Assembly: GCA_020073005.1 (NCBI GenBank)
Contig: JAIQFX010000011.1
Location: 42,675 to 106,674 of the forward strand
Origin: Terriglobia bacterium
GTDB taxonomy: Bacteria; Acidobacteriota; Vicinamibacteria; Vicinamibacterales; CAVVIG01
Reading direction: 5' to 3'
Length of the DNA: 64,000 nt
This document shows positions 28,981 through 63,999 of the stretch, one piece after another. The notes below the pieces were generated by a model. It was not told the origin of the DNA. It ran no database searches and saw nothing but the letters and a program-made list of their open reading frames with translations. Both the position numbers and the translations under genes were made by a program. Position 1 is the stretch's first letter, and the number at the start of each line of letters is the position of its first letter.

Positions 28981-30159
28981 TCAAATCACGTTCTGCCGGC
29001 GAAGGCCGGCGATGGCGTCAGGGCTGAATCCAAGGTCGCCGGCCAGGACGGCGTCGGTGTGCTGGCCGAGCAGTGGCGGCGGTGTCCGCACGGCGCCTGG
29101 TGTGTCCGACAGCTTCACCGGCACGCCGAGCGCGCGCAGCGATCCGATCGTGGAATGCTCGACACGCGCGATCATCTCGCGCGCGTCGATCTGCGGATCG
29201 TCGAAGAGCTCCTGCAGGTTGCGCACGGATCCGCACGGCACGCCGGCCGCCGTCAGCCGGTCGATCCAATGCTGCCGCGGCCGCCGCCGCAGCGCGTCGG
29301 CGACGAACGGCCGGAGCGCGTCGTACGACGTCACCCGCTGGCGATTCGTCGCAAAGCGCGGATCGTCGGGCACATTCGCGACCTCGCGAAAGCGGCGCCA
29401 CTGCTCGTCGGTTCCTACAGCAAGAACGAAGTCGCCGTCCGAGGCGGCGAACGTCTCGTACGGCACGATGCTCGGATGCCGGTTGCCGAGTCGCGCCGGC
29501 ACCGTGCCGCTTGCGAAGTAGTTACCGGCCTGGTACGTGAGCAGCGCCACGACTGAATCGAGCATCGCGACGTCGACTTCCTGGCCGCGGCCCGTCCGTT
29601 CGCGCGTGAAGAGCGCCATCGACACGCCGTACGCGGCGAACATGCCGGTCACGATGTCGGCGATCGCCACGCCGAGCCGGAACGGCGGACCCTCGGGCGC
29701 GCCCGTGATGCTCATCAGTCCGCCCTCGGCCTGCATCACGGCGTCGTAGCCCGGCTCGTTCTGTCTCGGTCCCGTGTGACCGAAACCCGAGACCGAGCAG
29801 TACACGAGCCGCGGATACTGCGCCGCCAGCGATGCGTAGTCGAAGCCCAGCTTCGTCAGCGTGCCGGGGCGGAAGTTCTCGACGACGACGTCGGCCTTCG
29901 CGACGAGTTGGCGAAGCACCGCCTGGCCTTCGGGCTGCTTGAAGTCGAGCGTCACGCTCTCTTTGTTCCGGTTGATGCTGAGGAAGTACGCGCTCTCGCC
30001 CTCGAGAAACGGCGGACCCCAGGCGCGCGTGTCGTCGCCTTTGCCCGGCTGTTCGATCTTGATGACGCGCGCGCCCATGTCGGCGAGCAGCATCGTGCAG
30101 TACGGGCCCGACAGCACGCGCGTCAGGTCGAGAATCGTGATTCCGTCGAGTGGCCTCAT
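28981..30159 (-). CDS. CaiB/BaiF-family CoA-transferase
   Basis: 392 aa class III CoA-transferase, which moves CoA between carboxylic acids. The N-terminal GITILDLTRVLSGPYCTMLLADMGARVIKIE segment (residues 5-35) and the catalytic-Asp region NEPGYDAVMQAEGG are typical. Length matches formyl-CoA/carnitine transferases; the substrate cannot be told. It diverges from the selenocysteine glutaredoxin gene with only 9 bp between the two start codons, so promoters must overlap coding DNA. Confidence 0.9.
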   Translation of the reverse strand: MRPLDGITILDLTRVLSGPYCTMLLADMGARVIKIEQPGKGDDTRAWGPPFLEGESAYFLSINRNKESVTLDFKQPEGQAVLRQLVAKADVVVENFRPGTLTKLGFDYASLAAQYPRLVYCSVSGFGHTGPRQNEPGYDAVMQAEGGLMSITGAPEGPPFRLGVAIADIVTGMFAAYGVSMALFTRERTGRGQEVDVAMLDSVVALLTYQAGNYFASGTVPARLGNRHPSIVPYETFAASDGDFVLAVGTDEQWRRFREVANVPDDPRFATNRQRVTSYDALRPFVADALRRRPRQHWIDRLTAAGVPCGSVRNLQELFDDPQIDAREMIARVEHSTIGSLRALGVPVKLSDTPGAVRTPPPLLGQHTDAVLAGDLGFSPDAIAGLRRQNVI

Positions 30160-30168
30160 AATGCCTGA

Positions 30169-30408
30169 ATGATTATCGTCTACGCGGGCTCCGCCTGACG
30201 AAGCTGCGAACAGGTGAAAGAGTTGCTTTCACGAGAAGGCGTGCCGTTCACGGCCTACAACGTCGATGAAGACGATCGCGCGTACGACGACCTGATCGCG
30301 CGCGGCTGGCGCACCGTCCCTGTGACGATCATCGGCGACAACGCGATCAAGGGCTTCGACGAGCGCGCGCTGATGGCCGCGATCGCCGATTGGCGCGCCC
30401 GGCCGTAA
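30169..30408 (+). CDS. Selenocysteine-containing glutaredoxin-like protein (in-frame TGA = Sec)
   Basis: 79 aa if TGA 196-198 (30196-30198) is read as selenocysteine. The reading frame runs ATG 30169, MIIVYAGSA, TGA, RSCEQVKELLSREG, then a full glutaredoxin fold with the cis-Pro segment TVPVTIIGD and GFDERALM. The TGA sits exactly where the first Cys of the CxxC active site belongs, giving U10-x-x-C13. A hairpin with 7-bp stem starts 15 nt after the TGA. A conventional caller would start at GTG 30214 and lose the beta-1 strand and active site. There is a stop just upstream of ATG 30169, and no ribosome site is obvious, so the transcript may be leaderless. The 3' 62 bp overlap hom on the other strand. 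The alternative is a nonsense-mutated gene. Confidence 0.8.
30196..30232 (+). promoter_or_regulatory. Bacterial SECIS-like element
   Basis: Directly after the in-frame TGA, GTGAAAG (30214-30220) pairs perfectly with CTTTCAC (30226-30232) around the loop AGTTG. The loop begins 22 nt after the TGA and has G at its second position, both inside the known limits for bacterial SECIS elements (loop 16-37 nt downstream, G among the first two loop bases). The codons involved (AAA, TTG, CTT, TCA) are A+T-rich compared with neighbouring genes, as expected if RNA structure constrains them. Confidence 0.75.
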
Positions 30409-31450
30409 CGTCTCGGGCAATCGTCACCAGGTCCGATAACAGCGCATACGCGGTCTGCGTGAGACTGCCGCTTCGCTGGACGACCGCGATCTCCTCGAGC
30501 AGATCGGTCCGCAGGACGAGCGCGTTCTGCTGCCCTTCGAGTCCCGCGAGCAGATCGTCGCCGGCGAGTTCTTCGAGCGCGACGCGGGCCCGCACGCGCC
30601 CACGGCCCCGGTCGGCTCGGGCCACGAGCTTCAATCGCCGGCCGGCCGCTCGCGCATCGACGGCTCGCTGTCCGCTGTCCCTCGTAATGCCTTCGCGCTC
30701 GACGTCGTGCGGCGTGATGCGCGCGTCGAGCAGCACGTTGGCGAGCGCCGCCGTCTTGGCGGCGGCGTCCCACCCGTCGACGTCGAAGGACGGGTCGGCT
30801 TCCGCAATGCCGCTCGCCTGCATTTCGGCAAGTGCAGCGTCGAACGTCCGGCCTTGTTCCATCTCGGTGAGCATGTAGTTGGTCGTGCTGTTGATGACGC
30901 CGCGAAAGCCCTGGACGCGCACCGCCGGCAGCGTCTCGCGCACCAGATTGAAGATCGGCACGCCGTCCATCACCGCGCCCTCGAACAGAAAGCGCCGATC
31001 CGCTCGCTCCGCCGCGCGGGCAAGCGCGTGATACGCGAACGCGACCGGGCCCTTGTTCGCCGTCACGACGTGCGCGCCCAGCGAAAGCGCGGTCCGTACA
31101 TGGCTGATGGCCGGCTCGCCGCGATCGATGTCCAGCGTCGTCGTCTCGACGACGACGAGACGACGATTGCGGGCGGCGGCGCGACTCGTCGTCGTCGCCT
31201 CGCGAAGCAAGGCGGCCGCGGATCCGGTTTCAGCCGGTCCAATCGATCTTCCACGCGCAACGGCCACAGCCAGCGCTCGGGTGTTCAGACCCTTCGCGGA
31301 GTAGGCGCATCCGTGACGGCGTGTCGCGATCCCGACGACGCGCGCGTCGACGCCGTGCTCGCGCGCGAGGACGCGGCGCCGGTCGTGGAGCAGCGCGGCG
31401 AATCGCCGGCCAACGTGGCCGAATCCGATCAGGATGAGGTCGAACGTCAC
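30347..31450 (-). CDS. hom: Homoserine dehydrogenase
   Basis: 367 aa. Reduces aspartate semialdehyde to homoserine for Thr and Met synthesis. The NAD(P)-binding start is LILIGFGHVGRRFAALL; the catalytic region has GAHVVTANKGPVA, the signature GFRGVINSTTNYML, and the DPSFDVDGWDAAAKTAALANVLL segment. No ACT domain is present, so allosteric control by Thr is unlikely. GTG 31450 overlaps the stop of the upstream aminotransferase (GTGA). The final 62 bp lie antisense to the selenoprotein gene; the C-terminal Arg/Ser-rich tail there is atypical. Confidence 0.9.
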   Translation of the reverse strand: MTFDLILIGFGHVGRRFAALLHDRRRVLAREHGVDARVVGIATRRHGCAYSAKGLNTRALAVAVARGRSIGPAETGSAAALLREATTTSRAAARNRRLVVVETTTLDIDRGEPAISHVRTALSLGAHVVTANKGPVAFAYHALARAAERADRRFLFEGAVMDGVPIFNLVRETLPAVRVQGFRGVINSTTNYMLTEMEQGRTFDAALAEMQASGIAEADPSFDVDGWDAAAKTAALANVLLDARITPHDVEREGITRDSGQRAVDARAAGRRLKLVARADRGRGRVRARVALEELAGDDLLAGLEGQQNALVLRTDLLEEIAVVQRSGSLTQTAYALLSDLVTIARDVTAGRANRRSRPSARARRSP

Positions 31451-52864: not shown

Positions 52865-52904
52865 GAGACTCCTTCCGGCGTCGCTCGCGCCGTGGAAAAG
52901 ACGC

Positions 52905-53112
52905 CCCCGGATTGACCAGGTTTCCTGACTCGCGGATCGCGGCGACGTCGCGCTCGTCTTCCCAAGCCGTTGCCGGCTCAGTGACGCCACGATCCCGACA
53001 ACCTGGGATCGCGGACCTCCTGCGCGTGTCGCTAGCCGCTTACAGTGGCGGGACCGTGTGGGCTTCGCACCCACTTCGCGTGGCCGCCGGGGTCAGCGTC
53101 AAGTACACCGCG
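52905..53112 (-). ncRNA. Cobalamin riboswitch
   Basis: On the minus strand the leader of btuB contains GAAGTGGGTGCGAAGCCCA, then CCGCCACTGTAAGCGG (53036-53049 holds the B12-box core), and near the 3' end GAGTCAGGAAACCTG (52915-52932). These are the invariant parts of the adenosyl/cobalamin riboswitch. It ends about 40 bp before the btuB ribosome site, so translation or transcription of the whole btu operon should fall when B12 is plentiful. Boundaries are approximate. Confidence 0.93.
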
Positions 53113-53140
53113 AGTATAGCAGGGTTGCCTCTGCTGTCTT
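53113..53140 (-). promoter_or_regulatory. Promoter of the btu riboswitch operon
   Basis: Minus-strand AAGACA (53140-53135) and TATACT (53118-53113), 16 bp apart, just upstream of the riboswitch. It overlaps the plus-strand promoter of yjbQ. Confidence 0.6.
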
Positions 53141-57779: not shown

Positions 57780-57891
57780 GCACCGCGGTCCGGAACCTGT
57801 GCAATTTCAGCCTGCGAACCGCGTCAGGGCCGGAAGGCAGCAGCGCTAAACAGATCCTGAGATGTGCCGCAGGCCCTCCGGGCCGCGGTGC
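57780..57891 (+). ncRNA. ffs: Signal recognition particle RNA, small bacterial (4.5S) type
   Basis: The invariant apical domain GTCAGGGCCGGAAGGCAGCA lies at 57823-57842. The ends GCACCGCGGTCCGGA (57780-57794) and TCCGGGCCGCGGTGC (57877-57891) pair over 15 bp. Total about 112 nt. It binds Ffh to target membrane proteins. Position directly before dnaX-ybaB-recR is the classical arrangement. Confidence 0.95.
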
Positions 57892-63924: not shown

Positions 63925-63999
63925 TCCTCAGTAGCTCAATGGTAGAGCATCCGGCTGTTAACCGGAGGGTTGCTGGTTCGAATCCAGCCTGAGGAGCCA
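63925..63999 (+). tRNA. tRNA-Asn (GTT)
   Basis: Full cloverleaf: acceptor TCCTCAG/CTGAGGA, D arm AGCTC/GAGC, anticodon arm CCGG-CTGTTAA-CCGG with GTT at 63957-63959, T arm GCTGG-TTCGAAT-CCAGC, discriminator G and encoded CCA. Decodes AAC/AAU. Confidence 0.97.

Follow-up and report, generated by a model that had tools for sequence, protein, structure and literature searches.

A predicted selenocysteine glutaredoxin encoded across an in-frame TGA in an acidobacterial genome

The locus and its neighbours

The window, i.e., the whole stretch of 64,000 nucleotides analysed here, carries on its plus strand a short glutaredoxin-fold gene, flanked by two genes of the opposite strand and interrupted by a single in-frame TGA. 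The features of the locus are the following:

28981..30159, minus strand: divergent neighbour, CoA-transferase family III (PF02515, 470 bits), found beside 29 of the 39 orthologous loci
30169..30408, plus strand: coding sequence of a predicted selenocysteine (Sec) glutaredoxin of 79 residues with Sec10 and Cys13 (frame with one TGA; Pfam; AlphaFold2; 39 orthologous loci)
30196..30198, plus strand: TGA, predicted Sec codon (codon 10); TGA in 39/39 orthologous loci, Cys in the relatives P0123, P0124 and P0125
30205..30207, plus strand: TGC, putative resolving Cys13 of the UxxC motif (TGC in 38/39 loci, TGT in 1/39)
30214..30216, plus strand: GTG, codon 16, at the 5' end of the hairpin stem, taken as the start by gene callers (19/21 database relatives; frame of 64 amino acids)
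30214..30232, plus strand: predicted bacterial SECIS hairpin, with a 7-bp stem (30214-30220 / 30226-30232) and the loop AGUUG (30221-30225), based on pairing, frozen codons and a published model
30347..31450, minus strand: convergent neighbour, homoserine dehydrogenase (PF00742, 159.6 bits), overlapping the 3' end of the glutaredoxin gene and found beside 27 of the 39 loci

The start of the CoA-transferase gene and the ATG at 30169 are separated by 9 bases (window 30159-30169), a close spacing seen again in several relatives, and all 39 loci adjoin at least one of six neighbours present in the window when flanks of up to 1.5 kb are searched. Five neighbours were scanned, namely the CoA-transferase III, the homoserine dehydrogenase, an aminotransferase, a protein with an FGE-sulfatase domain and one without a Pfam match, and none of these five gives a hint of the substrate. 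Elsewhere in the window lie a cobalamin riboswitch (52898-53122, minus strand), a bacterial small SRP RNA (57788-57886, plus strand) and a tRNA-Asn (63925-63999, plus strand).

Reading frame and predicted protein

The translation of 30169-30408 reads MIIVYAGSA*RSCEQVKELLSREGVPFTAYNVDEDDRAYDDLIARGWRTVPVTIIGDNAIKGFDERALMAAIADWRARP* (shortened form: MIIVYAGSA*RSCEQVKELLSREG...WRARP*). Its only internal stop is that of codon 10, and the frame closes with TAA (30406-30408). Since another in-frame TGA (30166-30168) stands directly 5' of the ATG, a start farther upstream is impossible; inspection by eye showed no clear ribosome-binding site upstream of this ATG. With Cys put for the TGA residue, the product matches the Pfam Glutaredoxin profile PF00462 at 53.9 bits (gathering cut-off 22.9) over profile positions 1-59 of 60, and AlphaFold2, supplied with an alignment of 37 rows, predicts a strand-helix-strand-helix-strand-strand-helix order with a mean pLDDT of 96. 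Moreover, among relatives the third positions are the most variable both in codons 2-9 and in codons 23-56, as expected if the sequence is under coding constraint before as well as after the TGA. An earlier note on this DNA had described the frame from ATG 30169 as a whole glutaredoxin whose sole interruption is a TGA at the first Cys of CxxC, and the product from GTG 30214 as devoid of strand beta-1 and of the active site. The first description is borne out by the Pfam score and by the 39 orthologous loci, the second by the open frame of 64 amino acids, which lacks strand 1 and the UxxC motif.

Conservation of the TGA and its replacement by Cys or Arg

In the class, 39 of 193 genomes contain a match, for 42 matches in all, of which 40 contain an internal TGA; in all these counts, L023-L029 were excluded as duplicates of L030-L034, L039 and L059. 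When the 42 matches were read singly, 39 turned out to be UxxC orthologues, each with TGA at codon 10 (39/39) and distributed over 38 genomes, i.e., the own genome and 37 others, with L059, which runs off a contig end, and L060 belonging to the same genome. The DNA alignment (A1) was made without the three remaining matches, L041, L069 and L070, and the protein alignment (A2) also without L059 and L060, these last two being cut short or carrying an insert. At the level of the family, 12 of 27 genomes match, and each of their 13 matches has one TGA.

The three matches outside the orthologue group are of different kinds. L070, with TGC, is a paralogue of the Cys type. The glutaredoxin-like frame L041 (YSQPG-TGA-MFC) encodes a second, distant UxxC protein in G015, a genome that also holds the orthologue. 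L069, from G065, is damaged: it shows CGA at codon 10 and loses the frame further on, with the hairpin still there. G065 was considered as a genome in the course of losing Sec; a tRNA-Sec match of 56.9 bits and a SelA frame that reads N in part remain there, so that the glutaredoxin alone is seen broken.

Four further relatives, all Pfam glutaredoxins, show what else can occupy the codon-10 residue: Cys in P0123, P0124 and P0125, and Arg in P0122, whose C-terminal part is intact. In the phylum the alignment is matched by 70 of 396 genomes, and among 24 loci read at codon 10 there are nine with TGA and 13 with TGC or TGT, the other two (L078 and L100) being out of register and left out. The check proposed in the earlier note, namely to look for relatives with Cys at codon 10, therefore came out in favour of its reading, thanks to P0123, P0124, P0125 and the more distant TGC or TGT loci. 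A tree of 45 rows (39 U including L041, four C and two R, with L059 left out), drawn to see if the Cys forms derive from losses, requires five label changes, little different from the mean of 5.8 after shuffling, for a short protein that offers few columns.

A predicted SECIS hairpin within the coding sequence

The hairpin, GUGAAAG-AGUUG-CUUUCAC, begins its loop 22 nt past the TGA. According to the available text of PMC13188914, the bacterial SECIS model has a loop of 3-9 nt and a stem of 4-16 bp, a G within the first two loop positions, a spacing of 16-37 nt and a minimum free energy of at most -7.5 kcal/mol. With a loop of 5 nt that starts A-G-U, a stem of 7 bp, a spacing of 22 nt and energies of -7.8 and -8.9 kcal/mol, the hairpin agrees with all four SECIS constraints. 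Pairing of the stem is complete in the 38 distinct rows (266 of 266 cells), compared with 25-67% when the partner is slid by 1-3 columns, and the loop G and U are present in 39/39 loci; the positions that close the loop form A-U in 22, C-G in nine and no pair in eight.

The synonymous sites through which the stem runs are likewise frozen. Across the orthologous loci, which are related and not independent, GTG is found in 39/39, CTT in 37/39 and TCA in 38/39, to be compared with a background, in 38 long frames of the window, in which CTT makes up 4.1% of the Leu codons and TCA 3.9% of the Ser codons. In the two rows with CTC (L040 and L064), AGG replaces AAA or AAG on the opposite arm, so that an A-U pair becomes G-C. 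Thermodynamic and covariation measures are less distinctive. In the 31-nt core, 38 of 39 loci fold into the hairpin and the energy is at most -7.5 in 39/39; compared with shuffled sequences, the folding energy does not stand out over 43 nt (z -0.64) and stands out modestly over the core of 31 nt (z -2.0), and a 56-nt stretch of the window takes a different fold, not the hairpin. The covariation score is 0.100, with the slide control at +2 reaching a higher value, 0.140, and some slides equal in double changes. Since folding energy gives little support, the SECIS assignment is based on pairing and codon use. The predicted hairpin, which the earlier note does not mention, is the strongest evidence for the selenocysteine reading.

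Truncated database entries and the possibility of a true stop

A single-sequence database search matched 990 proteins, and for every one of the best 120 of these 990 the query coverage is at most 81%. Among the matches listed, 21 relatives were read: 19 begin with V or M followed by K at codon 16, corresponding to GTG 30214, and two begin later. From these 19 of 21 starts it follows that gene callers place the start codon on what is the 5' arm of the hairpin, and the truncation by automatic annotation that the earlier note had anticipated is thus what the relatives read among the matches listed actually display.

The same entries speak for taking the TGA as a true stop, either in a decaying pseudogene or ahead of a real product that would be the 64-residue protein from GTG 30214: the database proteins are annotated in this way, and the relative L069 is damaged. 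We nevertheless regard a true stop as very improbable. The shortened form would lack strand 1 and the active site, codons 1-9 vary in a protein-like manner in relatives, mostly at third positions, and the paired synonymous sites are frozen. As to decaying relatives, which the earlier note had indicated as the finding that would speak against it, L069 is indeed damaged, but the same TGA persists in 39 loci in which other damage is not general.

Selenocysteine machinery in the genome and its relatives

The own genome (5.86 Mb, 179 contigs) contains tRNA-Sec (60.4 bits, cut-off 47; called by ARAGORN as tRNA-SeC with anticodon tca), SelA (541 bits, cut-off 267.9), SelB (347.6 bits, cut-off 242.25) and SelD (349.4 bits, cut-off 125), so that the four components whose presence had been suggested as a check all exceed their cut-offs. 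The SelD gene itself shows one in-frame TGA, in the motif U-A-S-K (L018, about 1492-1550). SelD, with the Sec motif UxxK, is on the list of selenoproteins in the available text of a 2026 review (PMC13188914), and the TGA in this motif therefore points to a second predicted Sec protein in the own genome.

The presence of the gene is linked to that of the machinery. Within the family, 12/12 genomes with the gene reach at least 56 bits for tRNA-Sec, compared with 6/15 without it (Fisher p 0.001, kinship ignored), and a SelA match is found in 12/12 and 7/15, respectively (Fisher p 0.003, kinship ignored); the 56-bit line was chosen post hoc, at a gap in the scores from 56.7 to 52.9, the tRNA-Sec family cut-off being 47. 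In the class, SelA is matched in 38/39 genomes with the glutaredoxin match and in 121/154 others (Fisher p 0.004, kinship ignored), the sole matching genome in which it was not found being G060. Of the 39 matching genomes, 33, as counted by eye, reach 56 bits or more for tRNA-Sec; no such match was found in the other six, whose completeness is 57% (G060), 83% (G076), 87% (G078), 74% (G079), 93% (G117) and 74% (G156).

These data also bear on whether a near-cognate tRNA could read the TGA, e.g., as Trp or Cys, with no involvement of selenium. Given the whole Sec machinery in the genome, a hairpin that fits the bacterial SECIS model and the relatives that carry Cys at that residue, such decoding appears even more improbable than a true stop. 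Finally, that a TGC or TGT was misread in sequencing or assembly, as is conceivable in a draft genome of 179 contigs, has a negligible probability and is refuted by the relatives, in view of the identical TGA in 37 other genomes and of the 81% limit on coverage in the best database matches.

Interpretation and proposed mechanism

The locus is a glutaredoxin-fold gene in which an in-frame TGA accompanied by a conserved hairpin is very likely translated as selenocysteine, which would give rise to a 79-residue UxxC redox protein. In particular, the codon is very likely selenocysteine because 37 related genomes share both the stop and the hairpin and because the genome possesses the Sec machinery. 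The selenoprotein reading of the TGA put forward in the earlier note is supported by the machinery genes, the Cys relatives, the TGA in 39/39 loci and the SECIS hairpin, from which we infer the insertion of Sec.

In the mechanism that we propose, SelB and Sec-tRNA-Sec would bind the hairpin at 30214-30232 and Sec would be delivered at the TGA (30196-30198). Our best guess for the chemistry, by analogy with the clostridial glutaredoxin cGrx1, is that Sec10 would act as the nucleophile, attacking either a disulfide or the oxidised form of a thiol or selenol enzyme, and that Cys13 would resolve the mixed bond. The oxidised protein might then be reduced again via thioredoxin reductase or a bacillithiol route. 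The choice of these donors derives from a comparison of biosynthetic genes: BshC, an enzyme of bacillithiol synthesis, is present in the own genome (L101) at 429.6 bits, over the cut-off, and no match to glutathione synthetase was found there with the one family searched (TIGR01380). The organism is thus a likely bacillithiol maker, and glutathione is both a doubtful partner and an improbable reductant.

A broader picture can be drawn only tentatively, and we consider it somewhat less than an even chance. The gene may represent a seleno-redoxin of bacillithiol-making Acidobacteria, with Sec ancestral in the orthologue group across many families of the class, V-K-x-x-L-S helix residues that owe as much to the SECIS RNA as to the function of the protein, Cys and Arg forms arising later through repeated losses, and bacillithiol or thioredoxin reductase in place of glutathione.

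Regarding its significance, a predicted redox protein of 39/193 genomes of the class has been hidden, the closest entries among the matches listed beginning past the active site, on the putative SECIS stem. The gene offers an unusually clean case of an RNA signal that freezes both codons and amino acids within a coding sequence, and truncated glutaredoxins starting [VM]K..LS could lead to more members. If the donor is not glutathione, Sec would be working in a bacillithiol background.

Comparison with known systems

The nearest solved structure is that of cGrx1 from Clostridium oremlandii (PDB 7c10 and 7c12), which has the same fold and carries Sec at the same place of U(C)xxC. It is the best match both by sequence profile, at 82.4 bits, and by structure, with 35% identity and a TM-score over the query of 0.87. 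In the available text of PMC7642778, cGrx1 is a native selenoprotein with the motif U(or C)PXC, proposed as the reductant of the selenoprotein MsrA, and its own reductant is named as glutathione. The window protein differs in its motif, which is U-R-S-C and not UPxC, and in coming from a genome where the search for glutathione synthetase gave no match. Other Sec glutaredoxins have been described in Sargasso Sea metagenomes and in Geobacter, Alkaliphilus and Moorella (PMC1088965 and PMC1794560, in their available text); like the window protein they belong to PF00462/COG0695 and have UXXC and a SECIS past the TGA, while the lineages differ.

As for the Acidobacteria, four selenoproteins in three families, given without family names, are reported in the available text of PMC1794560, and one acidobacterial genome with three selenoproteins in that of PMC12013277. 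No acidobacterial glutaredoxin is named in the available text of PMC1088965 and PMC1794560, and no publication on an acidobacterial Sec glutaredoxin was recognised among the papers listed for glutaredoxin or acidobacterial selenoproteins.

Membership in three described groups was considered and rejected, the scores lying under the cut-offs. For the YruB-family glutaredoxin-like model TIGR02196 the window protein reaches 60.1 bits (cut-off 88.55), although all 37 of 37 alignment members match it at E <= 0.001. For Uxx-star (NF041212), which together with related NCBIfam models also comprises small glutaredoxin-like proteins, many with Sec, it reaches 37.5 bits (cut-off 66). The NrdH redoxins (PDB 1h75, 4hs1, 4fiw and 4f2i), which receive electrons from thioredoxin reductase, resemble the window protein in fold, with TM-scores of 0.80-0.84 over the query; the window protein scores 47.7 bits against TIGR02194 (cut-off 85.75), and no ribonucleotide reductase is present among the five scanned neighbours. 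UxxC glutaredoxins are, as the earlier note stated, an established selenoprotein kind (PMC13188914, PMC1088965 and PMC1794560, in their available text), and the window gene, with its predicted Sec codon, is a new clade of this known kind.
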